Source of the DNA: Thermovirga sp.
GTDB taxonomy: Bacteria; Synergistota; Synergistia; Synergistales; Thermovirgaceae
Assembly (NCBI RefSeq): GCF_017656375.1
Contig: NZ_JACDOB010000010.1
Location: 1-55,244 of the forward strand
DNA length: 55,244 bases
Direction of reading: 5' to 3'
Below, piece after piece: positions 27,050 to 34,977 of the stretch (positions are counted from its first letter, which is position 1; the number at the start of each line of letters is the position of its first letter). Made by a program: the position numbers and the translations under genes. The notes under the pieces were generated by a model that worked only from the letters and a program-made list of their open reading frames with translations, searched no databases and was not told the origin of the DNA.

Positions 27050-27361
27050 ATGCAGATGATATTTAAAGAGACCTCATCATATACCTACAGTTTTTTGGTT
27101 GTCCTGCCAATATTTTTTTCTGTGGTGATAATATCATCTGTCGCTAGAAAATCTAATTCACCAATATGGAGAAACCTCTTTTGGGGAAGTCTTTTTACTT
27201 TTTTTTCTATCGCTTTTGTTTTGCTTTATAAAATAAAAATGTGGCTAGCTATTGCTCCTGTATTGCCAGCTGCCATAATAACAGCCTTCTTTTTATGCCA
27301 TAAGAGATTTCAAAACAAAAATAGCACCGATAAAATCGAAGCAGGTGTAGAAAATGAATAA
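27050..27361 (+). CDS. Small membrane protein of unknown function
   Basis: A 103-residue protein, not recognised. Three hydrophobic stretches at about residues 14-33, 43-60 and 63-83 predict three membrane helices, followed by a Lys/Asn-rich polar tail of about 20 residues. A purine-rich AAAAGAGAGAAA precedes the ATG as a modest SD; a second ATG two codons on is also possible. The gene overlaps the next one by 8 bases in another frame, which suggests the two are translated together and function together. It lies alone on the plus strand among minus-strand operons. Confidence 0.65.
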   Translation: MQMIFKETSSYTYSFLVVLPIFFSVVIISSVARKSNSPIWRNLFWGSLFTFFSIAFVLLYKIKMWLAIAPVLPAAIITAFFLCHKRFQNKNSTDKIEAGVENE

Positions 27362-28430
27362 CCTATTCTCGAAAAAAGCCAAATCCCTGATTTTAATATG
27401 CATCTGGATATTTATATTTACCTTCACGCCCCATGCAGTTTTAGCTTTTAAAAATCACGGATTTGTCATAAGAATAGAATGTTTCCCAGGAGGCTCTATC
27501 ACGGTACAAAGAGAAACAGAGCCACCCGTTATTCTAGGCAAAGTTGTGCAAATACCTAAAAAAACCAGATGGCCCTCATTCACCGCATCCAAATGGGGCA
27601 CTCCAGGTACGGTAGTAGCCTCTGCAGTAAACGCCTTACACATTCTCGTAAGTTTGGAAGATGGTCATGGCAGAACCATAAGCATATTACCTCAAGGCAC
27701 GATTGCTCCGGCAGCAGGCAAAAATTCATATATTTTAACAACCATCCCCCCTGGCCATGGCATATTCGGCGCATGGGCCCCTACTGTAGGAAGCAAAGTA
27801 AAACCCAACCTAAACAAGCAATATAAAGGCATCCCGAAGGAACCATGGGTCTTGGAAATACGTCAAGAACCTAAAGTTAGCCCATATTTCGTTGAAATAG
27901 AAAACCGCCCAGGGGGAAAGATCACCCTGTGGACCAGAGAAGGCCCTTCGATTTTAGGTAGGGTAATAAAACCTGTCTCAGGAAGCGGGCGCTTTCAAGG
28001 AACTCTTTTTCAGGACAAAGGTAGGATAAGAGCAAATCATCCAGGCGTGATAGATATAAGTACTTCTCCTAAAGGGCAAATTGGAGGCTTCCAGATCTTA
28101 CCTCTAGAACATGCCGCTTCAAGGGAAATGTACTCAGCCTGGAAGCTTACCCAATGGCTGATAGTAGCTCCTTATAAGGGAAAATTCGTGGGCAGTGCAC
28201 CGCTTTTTAGCAGTTACTTTGTTCCCGGACCTGCGCGAGGAGAGAAATTATGGGATCTGTGGTCCACTTACGGCAGGAAACCGCTGGTTTTAGTAAGAAT
28301 AAATGGAGGGAAATGGAGTTGGATGCCAGAAGCTGTGGGGAAAAAAGATTATGCTTTGGCCAGCATCACTCACATACGAATTTATTTCCCTTTTACTGAC
28401 CCACTCCTCTCCGAAGGGACAACACACTAA
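27354..28430 (+). CDS. Exported protein of unknown function with an internal duplication
   Basis: A 358-residue protein, not recognised. A signal peptide is clear: Lys-rich start, hydrophobic core at about residues 11-25, likely cleavage after AVLA (31). Two related halves follow. Residues 37-147 contain FVIRIECFPGGSITV, then PPVILGKVVQIP, then ISILPQG. Residues 179-286 contain FVEIENRPGGKITLW, then GPSILGRVIKPV, then FQILPLE. A shorter C-terminal segment (about 308-347) is rich in beta-type residues. No Cys-based lipobox and no catalytic motif is seen. Beta-rich repeats suggest a periplasmic or surface binding or structural protein. It is coupled to the upstream small membrane protein and ends before a terminator. 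Confidence 0.75.
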   Translation: MNNLFSKKAKSLILICIWIFIFTFTPHAVLAFKNHGFVIRIECFPGGSITVQRETEPPVILGKVVQIPKKTRWPSFTASKWGTPGTVVASAVNALHILVSLEDGHGRTISILPQGTIAPAAGKNSYILTTIPPGHGIFGAWAPTVGSKVKPNLNKQYKGIPKEPWVLEIRQEPKVSPYFVEIENRPGGKITLWTREGPSILGRVIKPVSGSGRFQGTLFQDKGRIRANHPGVIDISTSPKGQIGGFQILPLEHAASREMYSAWKLTQWLIVAPYKGKFVGSAPLFSSYFVPGPARGEKLWDLWSTYGRKPLVLVRINGGKWSWMPEAVGKKDYALASITHIRIYFPFTDPLLSEGTTH

Positions 28431-28568: not shown

Positions 28569-30401
28569 TTATTCCACAGTTACGCTCTTTGCCAAGTTTC
28601 TGGGTTGGTCAATTTCCCTACCAAGCATCTTAGCCATATGAAAAGCAAACAGCTGCAAGGGAACTACCGTTAAAAATGGAGAAAACTCCTCATCAGTCCA
28701 CGGAACCTCAAAATAGTCATCCATGTATTTCGATGCGTGATCATCTCCCTCTGTGCAAATACCCAACACAGGAGCGTTCCTGGCCTTAGCCTCCAGTACG
28801 TTTGAAAGTGTTTTTTCATACATCATATCCTTAGGAACAATTGCCATAACAGGAACTTTAGCATCCAAAAGGGCAATAGGACCATGCTTCATCTCTCCGG
28901 CTGCATAGGCCTCCGCATGAATATAAGAAATCTCCTTTAACTTGAGGGCCCCCTCCAACGCCACAGGGAAAGATATACCCCTTCCTATAAACAGAAAATC
29001 CTTTCGGTCATAATATTTCTGCGCAAGCTTTATTACTTTGTTTTCTTTTTCCAGTATGTTCTCTACTTTGTAAGGTATTTGCAAGAATTCGTTTACCAAA
29101 CGCTCCTCTTCATCTACAGTGATGGAGCTCCGCAAACGTCCTAAATAAAGAGCCGAAAGGAACAAAGCAGCTACCTGCCCTGTGAAAGTCTTTGTAGCAG
29201 CCACACCTATCTCTGGTCCAGCTTTTAAAAGCAAGACGCTATGGACCTCTCTTGCCAGCGTAGACCCTCTAACGTTAGTTATAGCCAGACAATGAGCCCC
29301 TTCTGCTCTGGCCTTTCGCTGAGCGGCAATAGTGTCCGCCGTCTCCCCAGATTGGGAGACAAAAATTGCAAGGGTCTGGGGGTCACACCTCAAGCTTCGG
29401 TACCTATATTCAGATGCTATGTCCACCCTAACCTCCATATCTGTCCATCTTTCAAAAACTCTTTCTGCCACCAGAGCAGCGTAATAAGAAGTACCACAGG
29501 CAACTATATGGACTCTATTCCATTTTTTAGCATCCTCTGGGGTCCAAGCCAAATCACTAGATAAATCAACCTTGCCGTCAGCTATACGCCCTTTCAACGT
29601 CGTTCTCAAGACCATTCCCTGTTCATGGATTTCCTTGTGCATATAATGAGAATGACCAGCTTTTTCAGTCATGTCTACATCCCATTCAACGGTATGGGCC
29701 TCTTTATCTACAACTTCACCCTGGCTGTCCCATACCATGACTCCATCGGGCCTGAGCTCTGCTATTTCCCCTTCTTCCAAATAAATCACCGATCTGGTGT
29801 ATGGAAGAAAAGCTGGAATATCAGATGCACAAAATGTCTCTCCATCACCGACTCCCAAAACCAAGGGAGATCCTCTTCGAACACAATATATCTTTTTATC
29901 CTCCCCTTCTCTAATAACAGCGAGGGCATAAGAACCTGTTAAAGCTTCTTGAAGTTTAACCATTGACTTAACCATATCTTTTGTCTCATCATAATACCTA
30001 GAGAGCAAATGTACTATTACTTCTGTGTCCGTCTCTGATTTAAATACCACTCCATCACGCAAAAGCTGTTCTTTTATGTCCATGTAATTCTCTATAATTC
30101 CATTGTGCACCAAAGCAAGCTGCCCGTTCCCATCGCTGTGAGGATGGGCATTCAGTAGTGTTACACCACCATGAGTAGCCCATCTAGTATGACCTATGCC
30201 TCTCTTTGCGTTAAAGATGTTTCCTTCTACTCGCTTTGCCAAATCCGCTACCTTACCTACTTCTTTGTATATTTCTATACCATCTGCTCCATCAATAGCC
30301 ATGCCTGCCGAGTCATAGCCTCTATATTCAAGACGCCTCAAACTATCCAGTATGACACTTGAGGCATTCTTCTTACCCACATATCCAACAATTCCGCACA
30401 T
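28569..30401 (-). CDS. glmS: Glutamine-fructose-6-phosphate aminotransferase (isomerizing)
   Basis: A 610-residue enzyme making glucosamine 6-phosphate from fructose 6-phosphate and glutamine, the entry to amino-sugar and cell-wall synthesis. The N-terminal glutaminase starts MCGIVGYVG, with Cys2 as nucleophile. The two SIS domains contain IFVSQSGETADTIAAQRKA and HGPIALLDAKVPVMAI, and the chain ends in the conserved LAKSVTVE. The start is fixed by the catalytic Cys2; an SD-like AGGAAGGAG lies about 14 bases upstream. A glmS ribozyme lies directly upstream, so expression is probably lowered when GlcN6P is abundant. Confidence 0.98.
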   Translation of the reverse strand: MCGIVGYVGKKNASSVILDSLRRLEYRGYDSAGMAIDGADGIEIYKEVGKVADLAKRVEGNIFNAKRGIGHTRWATHGGVTLLNAHPHSDGNGQLALVHNGIIENYMDIKEQLLRDGVVFKSETDTEVIVHLLSRYYDETKDMVKSMVKLQEALTGSYALAVIREGEDKKIYCVRRGSPLVLGVGDGETFCASDIPAFLPYTRSVIYLEEGEIAELRPDGVMVWDSQGEVVDKEAHTVEWDVDMTEKAGHSHYMHKEIHEQGMVLRTTLKGRIADGKVDLSSDLAWTPEDAKKWNRVHIVACGTSYYAALVAERVFERWTDMEVRVDIASEYRYRSLRCDPQTLAIFVSQSGETADTIAAQRKARAEGAHCLAITNVRGSTLAREVHSVLLLKAGPEIGVAATKTFTGQVAALFLSALYLGRLRSSITVDEEERLVNEFLQIPYKVENILEKENKVIKLAQKYYDRKDFLFIGRGISFPVALEGALKLKEISYIHAEAYAAGEMKHGPIALLDAKVPVMAIVPKDMMYEKTLSNVLEAKARNAPVLGICTEGDDHASKYMDDYFEVPWTDEEFSPFLTVVPLQLFAFHMAKMLGREIDQPRNLAKSVTVE

Positions 30402-30437
30402 CTATATTTATGACACTCCTTCCTGATTAACTACAAT

Positions 30438-30592
30438 AGAGAGGTTGCCGCTTCCTTTGTCCCACAGATCGCTCCGCGGTTTTGTAAAACGACTTTTTGG
30501 GCTGACCTCTACAACCCCTGGGACACCCGCCGAAACTTCGAAAATCCCAGCCCTCGTCAGCTGACTTGAGCCAGCTCAGGCGCTTGACATTA
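30438..30592 (-). ncRNA. glmS self-cleaving ribozyme/riboswitch
   Basis: Between galU and glmS the minus strand carries the conserved blocks of this class in order. They are AGCGCC at 30584-30579 (expected cleavage between A30584 and G30583), AGCTG ... CAGCTGACGAGG at about 30576-30552 (P1 stem and core), TTTCGGCGGGTG at 30535-30524, a G/C-rich P3 region near 30522-30515, and the conserved GGGACAAAGG at 30463-30454. GlcN6P acts as cofactor for cleavage in known members, and the 5'-OH downstream mRNA is then degraded (in B. subtilis by RNase J). A short open frame here is a shadow of the RNA. Ends are approximate. Confidence 0.93.
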
Positions 30593-30623
30593 TCCAACCT
30601 TATCGTATTCAAATCTTCAATAA

Positions 30624-31523
30624 CTACTCCATAATCTCCTCTTTATATTTGTTCACCTCCTCTAAAATTATTGTTCGCAAAGATTGCTCCCTAAGCGCCA
30701 ATGCCACATTGGTTCTTAACCAAGCTTCACCTGTCCCACAGTCATATCTTTCACCTGAGAAGACAACCCCGTAGACAGGCTCTTCTTCAAGGAGCAATCT
30801 AATGGCATCGGTGAGCTGATATTCCCCTCCTGCACCAAGGGTACACTTTTTTATGTACTTGAATATCTTGGAAGAAAGAACATATCTCCCCATAATGGCA
30901 TAATTGCTTGGCGCATCCTCAGGAGAAGGTTTCTCTACCATTCCCTTTATGGAGAAAAGTCCTTCACCTATAACTTGACCTATCTCTACTATTCCATACC
31001 TACTTGTCTCTGAAGGTGGAACCTCCATCAAGGCTATCACTGAAGCATTTTGGGATTCACATACATCTATGAGCTGCCTTAGCACCGGACAACCTCCTTG
31101 AGGGGGAATCATTATATCGTCAGGCAATATAACCCCAAAAAACGGCTCATCGCAAAAAGCCTCCCCCATCAATACTGCATGCCCTAACCCAAGAGGCTGG
31201 CTCTGACGCACCGAGGCAAACTCTATATCTTTCGAAATACTTTTTACTTTCTCTACCAGGTCCTTTTTACCCCTTTTCTCAAGCTCCTTTTCTAGCTCTA
31301 AGTTGCGATCGAAATAATCTAAAATAGAGTTCTTTCCTCTTGATGTGACAAAAACTATTTTTTCACAGCCTGACAAACGAGCCTCCTCAACACCATAAGC
31401 TATAACTGGTCTATCCAATACGGGCAACATCTCTTTAGGGATCTCTTTGGTTGCTGGAAGGAACCTGGTACCTAAACCGGCGACAGGGAAAAGGCATGTT
31501 TTCACCAAGCTTTTCCTTTTCAT
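30624..31523 (-). CDS. galU: UTP-glucose-1-phosphate uridylyltransferase
   Basis: A 299-residue nucleotidyltransferase making UDP-glucose from UTP and glucose 1-phosphate for glycan synthesis. The N-terminal FPVAGLGTRFLPATKEIPKEMLPV nucleotide-binding loop, VTSRGKNSILDYFDRN, and the GMVEKPSPEDAPSNYAIMGRY segment are those of GalU. It lies 11 bases after glmM and just upstream of the glmS ribozyme, so a galU-glmS transcript would be cut between the two genes. Confidence 0.95.
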   Translation of the reverse strand: MKRKSLVKTCLFPVAGLGTRFLPATKEIPKEMLPVLDRPVIAYGVEEARLSGCEKIVFVTSRGKNSILDYFDRNLELEKELEKRGKKDLVEKVKSISKDIEFASVRQSQPLGLGHAVLMGEAFCDEPFFGVILPDDIMIPPQGGCPVLRQLIDVCESQNASVIALMEVPPSETSRYGIVEIGQVIGEGLFSIKGMVEKPSPEDAPSNYAIMGRYVLSSKIFKYIKKCTLGAGGEYQLTDAIRLLLEEEPVYGVVFSGERYDCGTGEAWLRTNVALALREQSLRTIILEEVNKYKEEIME

Positions 31524-31534
31524 AACAAACCTCC

Positions 31535-32917
31535 TTAAGCTTTGGTAGCAGTTCTAATAATAGCATCTACCACCTTCTTGGCAGAAAGCTCCAACATTGA
31601 ATCTTCCTTAGCCTCCACTAATACCCTAATCAAAGGCTCCGTCCCCGATGGGCGAACTAAAATCCTGCCTACACCCCTCATTTCTTCCTCAATCTCCCTG
31701 ATGACACTCCACAATTCTGGATCTCCCATAACCTTCTCTTTTTTGTCTAAGGGCACATTTTTCAATAACTGGGGGTAACGATGAAACCTATCGATCAAAG
31801 TCGACAGATCTTCGTTAAGATAGCAACAGGCAGTTACAAACGCCAGCGAAGAGAGAAGACCATCTCCTGTAGATGTAAACTTCTTTAAAATTACATGTCC
31901 TGACTGCTCCCCCCCCAGAAAAGCATTATATTTGTCCATCGTCTCTAAAACGTATCGATCTCCAACCTTACATCGGAAGACAGCTATACCTTCCTTCTGC
32001 AACTGCTCTTCAAGAGCCATATTGCTCATTACTGTTGCCACCACTCCAGCTCCAAGGTCATTCGAACTTTTGAGCCATCTTGCAAGAACCCACAACATAA
32101 CATCTCCGTCTATAACACGACCTTTTGAATCTACAATCAACGTTCTATCTGCATCTCCATCAAAGGCGATCCCAAAGTCGTATTTATCCTCACTAACCTG
32201 TTTCGCCAAATTATTCAAATGCATAACACCTGAACGTTCATTTATACTCAACCCATCTTGGCGTACTCCCAAAAAATCTACTTCGCAGCCCATGCTACTG
32301 AAAACCTCCATAGCAGGTGCTACGACAGCTCCATTGGCACAATCAACTAATATCTTCCATTTATCAAAAACTGACCTATCGAAAAGTCCCTTCAGCCATT
32401 CGGCATATTCTTTCCAACCGTCAGAATTTTCCTCGATTTTGCCTATTGATGCACCGGTAGGTCTCCAGTCATCATTAAGGCTATCACCTATATATTCCTC
32501 AACCTCCCCCTCTGACTCATCTAATAGCTTGCTCCCCTCTTCGTCTAAGAATTTAACGCCGTTATATTCAGGAGGATTATGAGAGGCACTAACAACAGCC
32601 CCTCCGCTAGCTCGTAACTTCCTAACCATATAACTCACTCCGGGGGTTGGTATAACCCCTAAAGTCATCACATTTGCTCCTGCTGACACCATCCCTGCTA
32701 TTAGGGCTGACTCTAACATTTTGCCCGAATGCCTGGGGTCCCTCCCGACAACAATCGTTGGCTTGGAATTACCCCTCTTCTCTATGAGATAGAGAACATA
32801 GGCCCTTCCTAACCTCAAAACCATTTCAGGGGTCATAAAACCACGATTAGCAACATCCCTAACTCCATCGGTACCAAAAAGGCACCTTATACTATGTCTT
32901 TTATCCACAATATTCAC
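31535..32917 (-). CDS. glmM: Phosphoglucosamine mutase
   Basis: A 460-residue alpha-D-phosphohexomutase converting GlcN6P to GlcN1P. It has LFGTDGVRDVANRG at the start, the phospho-Ser loop VVSASHNPPEYNGVKF, metal-binding AFDGDADRTLIVD, sugar-binding GGEQSGHVI, and the phosphate-binding RPSGTEPLIRVLVE. It follows cdaR and cdaA, the same order as in Bacillus and Listeria, where GlmM binds and restrains CdaA. Its substrate is the product of GlmS encoded two genes downstream. Confidence 0.97.
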   Translation of the reverse strand: MNIVDKRHSIRCLFGTDGVRDVANRGFMTPEMVLRLGRAYVLYLIEKRGNSKPTIVVGRDPRHSGKMLESALIAGMVSAGANVMTLGVIPTPGVSYMVRKLRASGGAVVSASHNPPEYNGVKFLDEEGSKLLDESEGEVEEYIGDSLNDDWRPTGASIGKIEENSDGWKEYAEWLKGLFDRSVFDKWKILVDCANGAVVAPAMEVFSSMGCEVDFLGVRQDGLSINERSGVMHLNNLAKQVSEDKYDFGIAFDGDADRTLIVDSKGRVIDGDVMLWVLARWLKSSNDLGAGVVATVMSNMALEEQLQKEGIAVFRCKVGDRYVLETMDKYNAFLGGEQSGHVILKKFTSTGDGLLSSLAFVTACCYLNEDLSTLIDRFHRYPQLLKNVPLDKKEKVMGDPELWSVIREIEEEMRGVGRILVRPSGTEPLIRVLVEAKEDSMLELSAKKVVDAIIRTATKA

Positions 32918-32933
32918 CTCTTCGAAACTTATT

Positions 32934-34136
32934 TCACTCCATATTAGCGAACACCTTCACAGTGGGAGGCTCTATCTTTAAAACCTTCACTCCAGGCTTT
33001 AGAAGCTTATATTGCAAAGGGACTCTAATCTCAGTAGATACCAAGTTCGTTACCTCAACATAAAGTTCTACTGGTACAGGCGCCCCTTCTTCTAAAACAG
33101 AAGATATTCCTTCCAACGTAACCGATGCACTCTCTGGTTTTACCCTCCAGGAAGGATAAATGCTTTTCCCCTTAATCACTATAAAAACCTGTTCAAAGGT
33201 CCGTCTCACTAGGTTGGGCTCCACCATCAAATTAACCGTCACCCTATCAGGTGCCAAAACTTTTGCTCCTTTGTAGATTTCAGGCATAGATGCTTTAATA
33301 GTCACATCTTCTTTAATTCCATTGACGTTCACTGGTAAAATTATTTCTTTTATATCTTCTATCACTTCCAAGGGCCCTTCAACAACTGCATTTTTAGGTT
33401 CAATAGTTATATCTTTCATTTTATAATTTCTATCCAGTTTTCCTTCCACTTTTATTTTTATAGGTACTGTTTTTTTAGGAACGCCTTTTATCAAAAAGTA
33501 GCTTACTTTGGCTCTAGATGGCTCTATTATCAACCCAGCACCAGATGTTTCTTGGCTTACCTTTAAAGGCAAAACTAGGCTGTTTCTATCCTTCAACATC
33601 TCAAAAGTTACTTCTGCTTTTACATCAGATATATTTCGCAGGTCATTTTCTGGTCCTTTGACCACAACTTTCTCAGGCTCTATTCGCACTTCTTCCAAAG
33701 TATATCCTGGAGGAAGGCCACCCGAAACTTTCAACTTTATTGGCACTTCCTTACTCTGGGTTTTGATTATATTTATTTCTATACTTGCTGGCGAAATACT
33801 TATCAATTTAAATCCGGATGGTAAAATGACCTTTACTGGCACCACGTGCCTCCCTGGCCCCAGCCCTCTCAAATCTGCTTGGCACGTTATTTCAGACCAC
33901 CTCTTACCCAGGAAAAGCTCTCTGCTTGCAGATACTTGCACCTCAACCTTTCGGACATTGCTATTTATGGCATATTCAGAAGGTACATTAAGATACTCTA
34001 TTGGAAACAAAAAAGTACGTATAACTTCCGAAGTTCTATCGGAAGCTACATAATACCAAATGGCAATTGCCATCAATAAGGAAATCACCTTGAGAAACGT
34101 TCTAGACGAAAGCAGACGATCAATTTCCTTTAGCAT
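32934..34136 (-). CDS. YbbR-domain protein, CdaA regulator-like
   Basis: A 400-residue protein with one N-terminal membrane helix (about residues 12-30, FLKVISLLMAIAIWYYVAS) followed by tandem extracytoplasmic YbbR repeats. Recurring marks are VPIKLKVSGGLPPGYTLEEV, VPIKIKVEGKLDRNYKMKDI and the VVKGPENDLRNI / VVEGPLEVIEDI pairs. In Firmicutes the equivalent CdaR modulates the diadenylate cyclase CdaA. It overlaps cdaA by 17 bases, which suggests coupled synthesis and a membrane complex. Confidence 0.9.
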   Translation of the reverse strand: MLKEIDRLLSSRTFLKVISLLMAIAIWYYVASDRTSEVIRTFLFPIEYLNVPSEYAINSNVRKVEVQVSASRELFLGKRWSEITCQADLRGLGPGRHVVPVKVILPSGFKLISISPASIEINIIKTQSKEVPIKLKVSGGLPPGYTLEEVRIEPEKVVVKGPENDLRNISDVKAEVTFEMLKDRNSLVLPLKVSQETSGAGLIIEPSRAKVSYFLIKGVPKKTVPIKIKVEGKLDRNYKMKDITIEPKNAVVEGPLEVIEDIKEIILPVNVNGIKEDVTIKASMPEIYKGAKVLAPDRVTVNLMVEPNLVRRTFEQVFIVIKGKSIYPSWRVKPESASVTLEGISSVLEEGAPVPVELYVEVTNLVSTEIRVPLQYKLLKPGVKVLKIEPPTVKVFANME

Positions 34137-34977
34137 CTTTGTCTTCCTTCCTGTTCCCTTCTCTAACGGGCCAAAGGGTTTTTAGCTCTTTCTTCAATGT
34201 CTCCCACCAGGGGCTAGAGCCTCTTGAAACAGCAGAAAAATAATGTAGGAGCAACCTTCTAATTTGGTCCTCCCTTAATTTTCTCGACAAGTGGCCATTT
34301 ATAGCTAACGCTATCTCCCCTCTTTCCTCCGAAACTACCAATGCCATAGCATCGGATACTTCTGTTATCCCCAAAGCCGCTCTATGTCTTGTGCCTATCC
34401 ATCTGGAAAGATTGCTGTTTTCAGTTAAAGGCAAATAACAAGCAGCAGCAATAAGCTTCTCCCTATCAAGAATAACCGCCCCATCATGTAAGGGCGTTCC
34501 CGGCCAAAATATAGTAACAATCAAATCTTCTGATATCTCACTGTTGAGCTTAACAGCAGATCGCCAAATATCCTTTAGCCCCGTATTCCTCTGAAAAACC
34601 AAAATAGCCCCTATCTTTTGGCTTCTGAGATATTCCAATGCCCTAGTCACTTCGTCCGTAAGCTGGCCCGCTCGCTCCTCAGCTTGCTTTCTCCTAAGAA
34701 TATTGCCCCTTCCTAGTTCCTCGAGCATACGCCTCAATTCTGGCTGGAATACGATTGGGATAGCTATGACTATGACCCCAAACAGTCTGCCTAATACCCA
34801 AGACAGTGCCTCTAAGTGGACCAATCTTGCCAAAGCTGCTATCGATCCCAGTACTATAAGCCCCTTTACCAATTGCATTGCCCTGGTATCTATGAGGAGC
34901 AAAAGCACCCTATACAAAATAAAAGCTATTATGGCTATATCCAAAAAATCTCGCCAATGAACCATATCAAAAAACAT
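34120..34977 (-). CDS. cdaA: Diadenylate cyclase CdaA
   Basis: A 285-residue membrane-bound synthase that makes c-di-AMP from two ATP. Three hydrophobic segments fill residues 1-80, followed by the DAC domain with the catalytic DGA motif (TPLHDGAVILDREKL) and the RHR motif (GTRHRAALGITEVSD). A short Lys-rich tail closes the protein. GAGGGAC precedes the ATG. The order cdaA-cdaR-glmM is the characterised c-di-AMP module, and a likely c-di-AMP phosphodiesterase is encoded at 14178-16211. Confidence 0.95.
   Translation of the reverse strand: MFFDMVHWRDFLDIAIIAFILYRVLLLLIDTRAMQLVKGLIVLGSIAALARLVHLEALSWVLGRLFGVIVIAIPIVFQPELRRMLEELGRGNILRRKQAEERAGQLTDEVTRALEYLRSQKIGAILVFQRNTGLKDIWRSAVKLNSEISEDLIVTIFWPGTPLHDGAVILDREKLIAAACYLPLTENSNLSRWIGTRHRAALGITEVSDAMALVVSEERGEIALAINGHLSRKLREDQIRRLLLHYFSAVSRGSSPWWETLKKELKTLWPVREGNRKEDKDAKGN

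Follow-up and report, generated by a model that had tools for sequence, protein, structure and literature searches.

Gene content of the locus and identity of the glmS ribozyme

On its minus strand, the window (the whole 55,244-nt stretch of DNA that we analyzed) carries, in this order, pyk, a nudix gene, nfo, an orr-like racemase gene, cdaA, cdaR, glmM, galU, a glmS ribozyme and glmS. The features of the core locus are as follows.

34120–34977, minus strand: cdaA, diadenylate cyclase (TIGR00159, 233 bits)
32934–34136, minus strand: cdaR, YbbR-domain protein (PF07949, three stretches)
31535–32917, minus strand: glmM, phosphoglucosamine mutase (TIGR01455, 493 bits)
30624–31523, minus strand: galU, UTP--glucose-1-phosphate uridylyltransferase (TIGR01099, 328 bits)
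30651–30663, minus strand: extended Shine-Dalgarno (SD)-like element AGAGGAGGTGAAC, 68–80 nt upstream of ribozyme G1, inside the galU coding end
30437–30595, minus strand: glmS ribozyme (RF00234; cmscan, full model; covariation)
30416–30424, minus strand: probable glmS Shine-Dalgarno sequence AGGAAGGAG (from the sequence; −12.9 kcal/mol with the 16S tail)
28569–30401, minus strand: glmS, glutamine--fructose-6-phosphate transaminase, 610 aa (TIGR01135, 799 bits)

An initial annotation of this DNA had placed glmM and galU directly upstream of the ribozyme on the same strand, which we confirmed; cdaA and cdaR, the c-di-AMP genes, are found there as well. The spacer between the galU stop codon (30626–30624) and ribozyme G1 measures 40 nt; the 41 bases given initially denote the same position under a different counting convention. 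A further 35 nt separate the end of the ribozyme match from the glmS start. Convergent to glmS lies an ORF of 358 aa (27354–28430, plus strand) that matches neither Pfam (E ≤ 10) nor NCBIfam; beyond this ORF follow tRNA-Gln and then GlmU-like and phosphoribosyl pyrophosphate synthetase-like genes. Homologs of this ORF (~47–62% identity, higher in the sister species) are located downstream of glmS in most Synergistales, and downstream of galU in several genomes that have glmS elsewhere.

The proposal that the minus strand encodes a complete glmS ribozyme was borne out by a cmscan search of the window, which returned an untruncated RF00234 match of 100.5 bits (gathering threshold 37; E = 2.2e-22) covering model positions 1–167 of 167. 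This is the only copy in the whole genome. The core AAGCGCC within ATGTCAAGCGCCTGAG sets the cleavage site between A30584 and G30583, the same bond that had been named before. We then aligned 20 Synergistota ribozymes, in which 87.7% of cells were paired and 28 of 39 pairs had changed on both sides. None of 500 shuffles matched the pairing level of this alignment, and shifting the partners by one column gave pairing of ~51%. The catalytic core, A(−1) and GCGCC were invariant across the aligned sequences, and the P2.2 pseudoknot was paired in 100%. A chance or degenerate ribozyme is ruled out by the cmscan score together with the covariation.

The window ribozyme belongs to RF00234 as a typical and well-supported member, placed in a near-classical operon of an uncommon phylum. 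It shares with the family the full-length model match, the invariant core, the P2.2 pseudoknot, the cleavage motif and the position ahead of glmS, and differs in its Synergistota host and a short P1 loop; catalytically, it offers nothing new.

Operon context and distribution in Synergistota

The initial annotation had described the ribozyme as lying outside the classical Firmicutes setting, and this holds for the host but not for the setting. Among named GlmS proteins, the closest comes from a Synergistales MAG (77%), and a GlmS tree puts the window protein within Synergistales, first with its sister species and next with further ribozyme-bearing genomes of the phylum; we assign the host to Synergistota on the basis of these matches. 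The setting is the Bacillus operon with galU inserted. B. subtilis has a cdaA-cdaR-glmM-glmS operon with the ribozyme in the glmS 5′UTR (PMC6171935), and the window has the same four genes in the same order, likewise with the ribozyme ahead of glmS. What differs is galU, which follows glmM and precedes the ribozyme; in S. aureus the corresponding place is taken by mannitol genes and fmtB, which separate glmM from glmS (PMC8537086). The presence of galU in this gap is the only unusual point of the layout, and it is general in Synergistales. An unusual genomic setting is ruled out, as the layout is conserved across Synergistales and near-classical. The suggested link between the GlcN6P level and a c-di-AMP cluster is not novel, since it is already known from the Bacillus and Staphylococcus operons.

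The ribozyme was present in 46 of 61 near relatives and in 63 of 188 genomes of the phylum, 165 of which contain a glmS gene. It was positioned directly ahead of glmS in all 60 loci read, and most of these, including most ribozyme-bearing Synergistales, had cdaA-cdaR-glmM-galU upstream. The exceptions were part of family f4, where galU is missing, and family f10, which has none of these upstream genes. In 40 ribozyme-negative genomes, some with short contigs, glmS was never found adjoining glmM or cdaA; in the ribozyme-negative genome G062, galU precedes glmS. Most of 27 ribozyme-negative cdaA loci retain cdaR and glmM and many retain galU, and in several of them the 358-aa ORF comes right after galU, as if loss or relocation had affected ribozyme and glmS jointly.

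GlmS proteins from ribozyme-negative genomes formed two main groups in our tree, which was built by a quick method and has long branches. One lies near the two Bacillota sequences that the tree contains, which suggests gene replacement, and the other within Synergistales GlmS. Ribozyme-negative genomes of families f3 and f5 carry either a Bacillota-like or a Synergistales GlmS, both away from glmM, an apparent case of gene replacement and relocation. Among the genomes examined, the ribozyme and the operon are common in Synergistales, and where the ribozyme is absent, glmS is found away from the glmM cluster.

A conserved Shine-Dalgarno-like element precedes the cleavage site

The initial annotation missed a conserved SD-like element upstream of the cut: AAGGAGGTGAT-like sequences occur there in nearly all ribozyme-bearing leaders compared. 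We quantified element strength as the energy of the duplex with GAUCACCUCCUUUCU, in 40-nt bins from −1080 to +239 relative to G1. Across 25 genera, whose related genomes are non-independent samples, the bin from −80 to −41 averaged −17.3 kcal/mol, with 96% of genera at or below −14, compared to means of −6.6 to −11.8 kcal/mol in all other bins, including those containing the glmS ribosome binding site (RBS). Dinucleotide shuffles of the element region averaged −10.7 kcal/mol, which rules out base composition as the cause. The element was weak in one genus (f4 g20) and in one species (G047).

Because the motif had first been spotted by eye in the Synergistota data, a separate set was needed, and it consisted of 72 ribozymes from the phylum to which a Clostridia genome belongs (hereafter, the Clostridia phylum). 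Here, 55 of the 72 had an element at or below −14 kcal/mol, 46 of these outside coding sequence; 52 scored better than ~95% of their own dinucleotide shuffles, and one leader contained a perfect AAAGGAGGTGATC element. Three Clostridia leaders (L293, L294 and L319) have two SD-like elements in tandem upstream of the ribozyme. A separate recurring feature of most Synergistota ribozyme loci, absent from the window's genus and from family f6, is a GCG trinucleotide ~10–16 nt upstream of the cut, between the element and the cleavage site.

The window copy gives a duplex energy of −18.0 kcal/mol with the 16S 3′ tail, compared to −12.9 kcal/mol for the glmS RBS. We found no 16S 3′ end in the window's own genome, where it appears to be missing from the assembly; the sister species has the anti-SD tail GGCTGGATCACCTCCTT in three copies, and most relatives checked have it as well. 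The segment AACCUCUCUA (30446–30437, minus strand), just after P4, can pair with the window element at −10.9 kcal/mol, and pairing with this region is not conserved in relatives. We rejected pairing with the ribozyme or leader, in place of 16S, as a general account of the element: the strongest partner is found at varying places, and pairing is clearly better than in shuffles in only 4 of 25 genera.

The element falls within the upstream coding sequence in 18 of 25 Synergistota genera as well as in the window, which raises the question of whether it is a by-product of protein coding. According to this explanation, the locus would hold a canonical ribozyme and nothing else, the element would play no role in decay, its coding copies would reflect a conserved LREVV/LKEVV C-terminus of GalU or GlmM, and the other copies would be an RBS for a leader ORF or a leftover. 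A conserved LREVV-type C-terminus yielding GAGGTG does explain part of the signal, possibly including the window copy. Some leaders, e.g. those of G016, G025, G040 and G039, place an ATG 6 nt downstream of the SD, and small leader ORFs may exist in some leaders with a plausibly spaced start codon. However, galU 3′ ends from ribozyme-negative Synergistota averaged −7.5 kcal/mol and contained the element in 0 of 15 cases, and it was equally strong in non-coding copies and in family f10, where neither galU nor glmM precedes the ribozyme. The element was found in 0 of 30 TPP riboswitch leaders from Synergistota and 0 of 30 from the Clostridia phylum (aptamer start estimated from the CTGAGA motif). 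Upstream of ribozyme-negative glmS genes, the ordinary RBS bin alone stood out.

Start codons point the same way. Their frequency 5–9 nt after the core was near chance (19/55 vs. 13.8 expected; 16/55 vs. 13.6), and the reading frames following the element were not conserved. Plausibly spaced start codons were slightly above chance in Synergistota (10 of 24 genera vs. 6.1 expected), and the window has none at 5–9 nt. At a rate so close to chance, most copies of the element seem unlike ordinary initiation sites. Taken as a whole, the explanation by a canonical ribozyme with a functionless element appears improbable to us.

Promoters and co-transcription

A promoter scan of the minus strand found none in the gap from galU to the ribozyme and nothing promoter-like in 30600–30900. 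This agrees with the earlier statement that the gap has no clear promoter, but the scan overall performed at chance level (14 promoters found vs. 13 expected). Likewise, an alignment anchored on the cut revealed no conserved −10 or −35 box between galU and the ribozyme across genera, with low column information except at positions −1 and −2. We considered GATAAT at 30594–30589 as a candidate −10 box and disfavor it: it has no well-spaced −35, would start transcription at or after the cut, and is missing in the sister species.

These results bear on the possibility that most glmS transcription begins at a promoter of its own within the 3′ end of galU, in which case the ribozyme would split no polycistronic message. 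Besides the absence of a promoter-like site in the window and of conserved boxes in the alignment, the gap of only 40 nt and the conserved gene order argue against it. B. subtilis-type operons can mix promoters, though, and apparent promoters do separate the ribozyme from the upstream gene in family f10 and in f4 g20. With what clearly look like own promoters in some Synergistota relatives, co-transcription cannot be assumed. For the window, we regard a dominant own promoter as rather unlikely.

Where a leader seems to have its own promoter, the SD-like element is located near the inferred 5′ end; this applies to family f10, f4 g20 and some Clostridia leaders, and not to the window. In f4 g20, the weak GGGAGG comes to lie near the inferred 5′ end, judging from a terminator-like repeat and a −10-like sequence, and in some Clostridia leaders TATAAT immediately precedes the element.

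A proposed removable-shield model for the glmS leader

We lean, if only slightly, towards an explanation in which a standard glmS ribozyme is combined with a removable 30S shield; its steps of cleavage, decay, co-transcription, docking and protection are those that we infer. Abundant GlcN6P would bind the leader and trigger cleavage at A30584/G30583. The 3′ product, comprising the rest of the leader and glmS, would thereby gain a 5′-OH end and enter decay by RNase J, while the 5′ product, if co-transcribed, would retain the coding sequences of cdaA-cdaR-glmM-galU. The SD-like element (30663–30651) may act as a docking site for the 30S subunit, in the manner of the STAB-SD of Bacillus cry3A. 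On the uncut message, a docked 30S subunit would stop RNase J that approaches in the 5′-to-3′ direction, e.g. from an end created by endonuclease cleavage within galU, and the shielded glmS mRNA would persist. Self-cleavage would part the shield from glmS, so that the ribozyme would effectively switch mRNA stability.

Several components of this model have precedents. The 5′-OH cleavage product is degraded by RNase J1 in B. subtilis (PMC3997798; PMC11780869), and the STAB-SD of cry3A mRNA is an SD-like sequence that directs no translation, binds 30S and stops RNase J1 (PMC4113751). A search of 41 genomes gave an RNase J match in every one, above the cut-off in 40, with 548.7 bits in the window genome. 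Like the STAB-SD, the element matches the 16S 3′ end beyond chance, seems in most copies not to be placed for initiation, and precedes a gene in a host that has RNase J. Unlike the STAB-SD, it precedes a self-cleaving ribozyme, so that cleavage would detach it from the gene; moreover, the window copy, a candidate 30S site, is in a coding 3′ end. Passage of translating ribosomes over such coding copies, which are those of the window and of 18 of 25 genera, counts against the model. By analogy, the glmS leaders of Synergistota and the Clostridia phylum could constitute a two-part removable-shield switch, in which ligand-induced cleavage detaches a STAB-SD-like element, a generalization that we advance tentatively and would not yet call probable. 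A transcript starting mainly from a promoter inside galU is compatible with the shield model.

The element could instead serve the upstream product. A 30S subunit docked near the new 3′ end, with its 2′,3′-cyclic phosphate, would block 3′-to-5′ nucleases and allow the cdaA-cdaR-glmM-galU mRNA to survive. A position 40–80 nt before the new 3′ end fits this idea, as does the presence of glmM-galU upstream in most Synergistota. Family f10, however, has the element with none of these genes upstream and with an apparent promoter of its own, which leaves no coding product to protect, and we consider a role in upstream protection very unlikely.

If the shield model is true, it would help explain the strong regulation achieved by self-cleavage: an uncut leader is open to 5′ attack or to upstream cuts by other nucleases, and a built-in stabilizer that disappears on cutting would raise the contrast between the two states. 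The model would likewise matter for glmS-activating antibiotic leads and for ribozyme-based gene switches. The ribozyme and operon being near-classical, the SD-like element upstream of the cut is what is new here and the part worth following. We found no description of it in the literature searched, and an earlier report of the element, or of Synergistota members of the ribozyme family, may exist. The one paper in that literature to cover both STAB-SD and glmS, a decay review, treats the two separately.

The leaders of family f10 offer a further comparison. Work by Hambraeus in 2002, cited in PMC3997798, reportedly ascribed stabilization by aprE-type leaders to a 5′ stem-loop together with ribosome binding. 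Leaders of family f10 appear to have a similar order of parts, namely promoter, 5′ stem-loop, SD and then ribozyme, an arrangement that the window, with no clear promoter at this point, does not show. In six f10 leaders (L158, L189, L190, L153, L162 and L191) glmS stands without the operon, and in most of them a promoter (e.g. TTGATA-17-TATACT) is followed by what appears to be a 5′ stem-loop, an SD-like element and the ribozyme.
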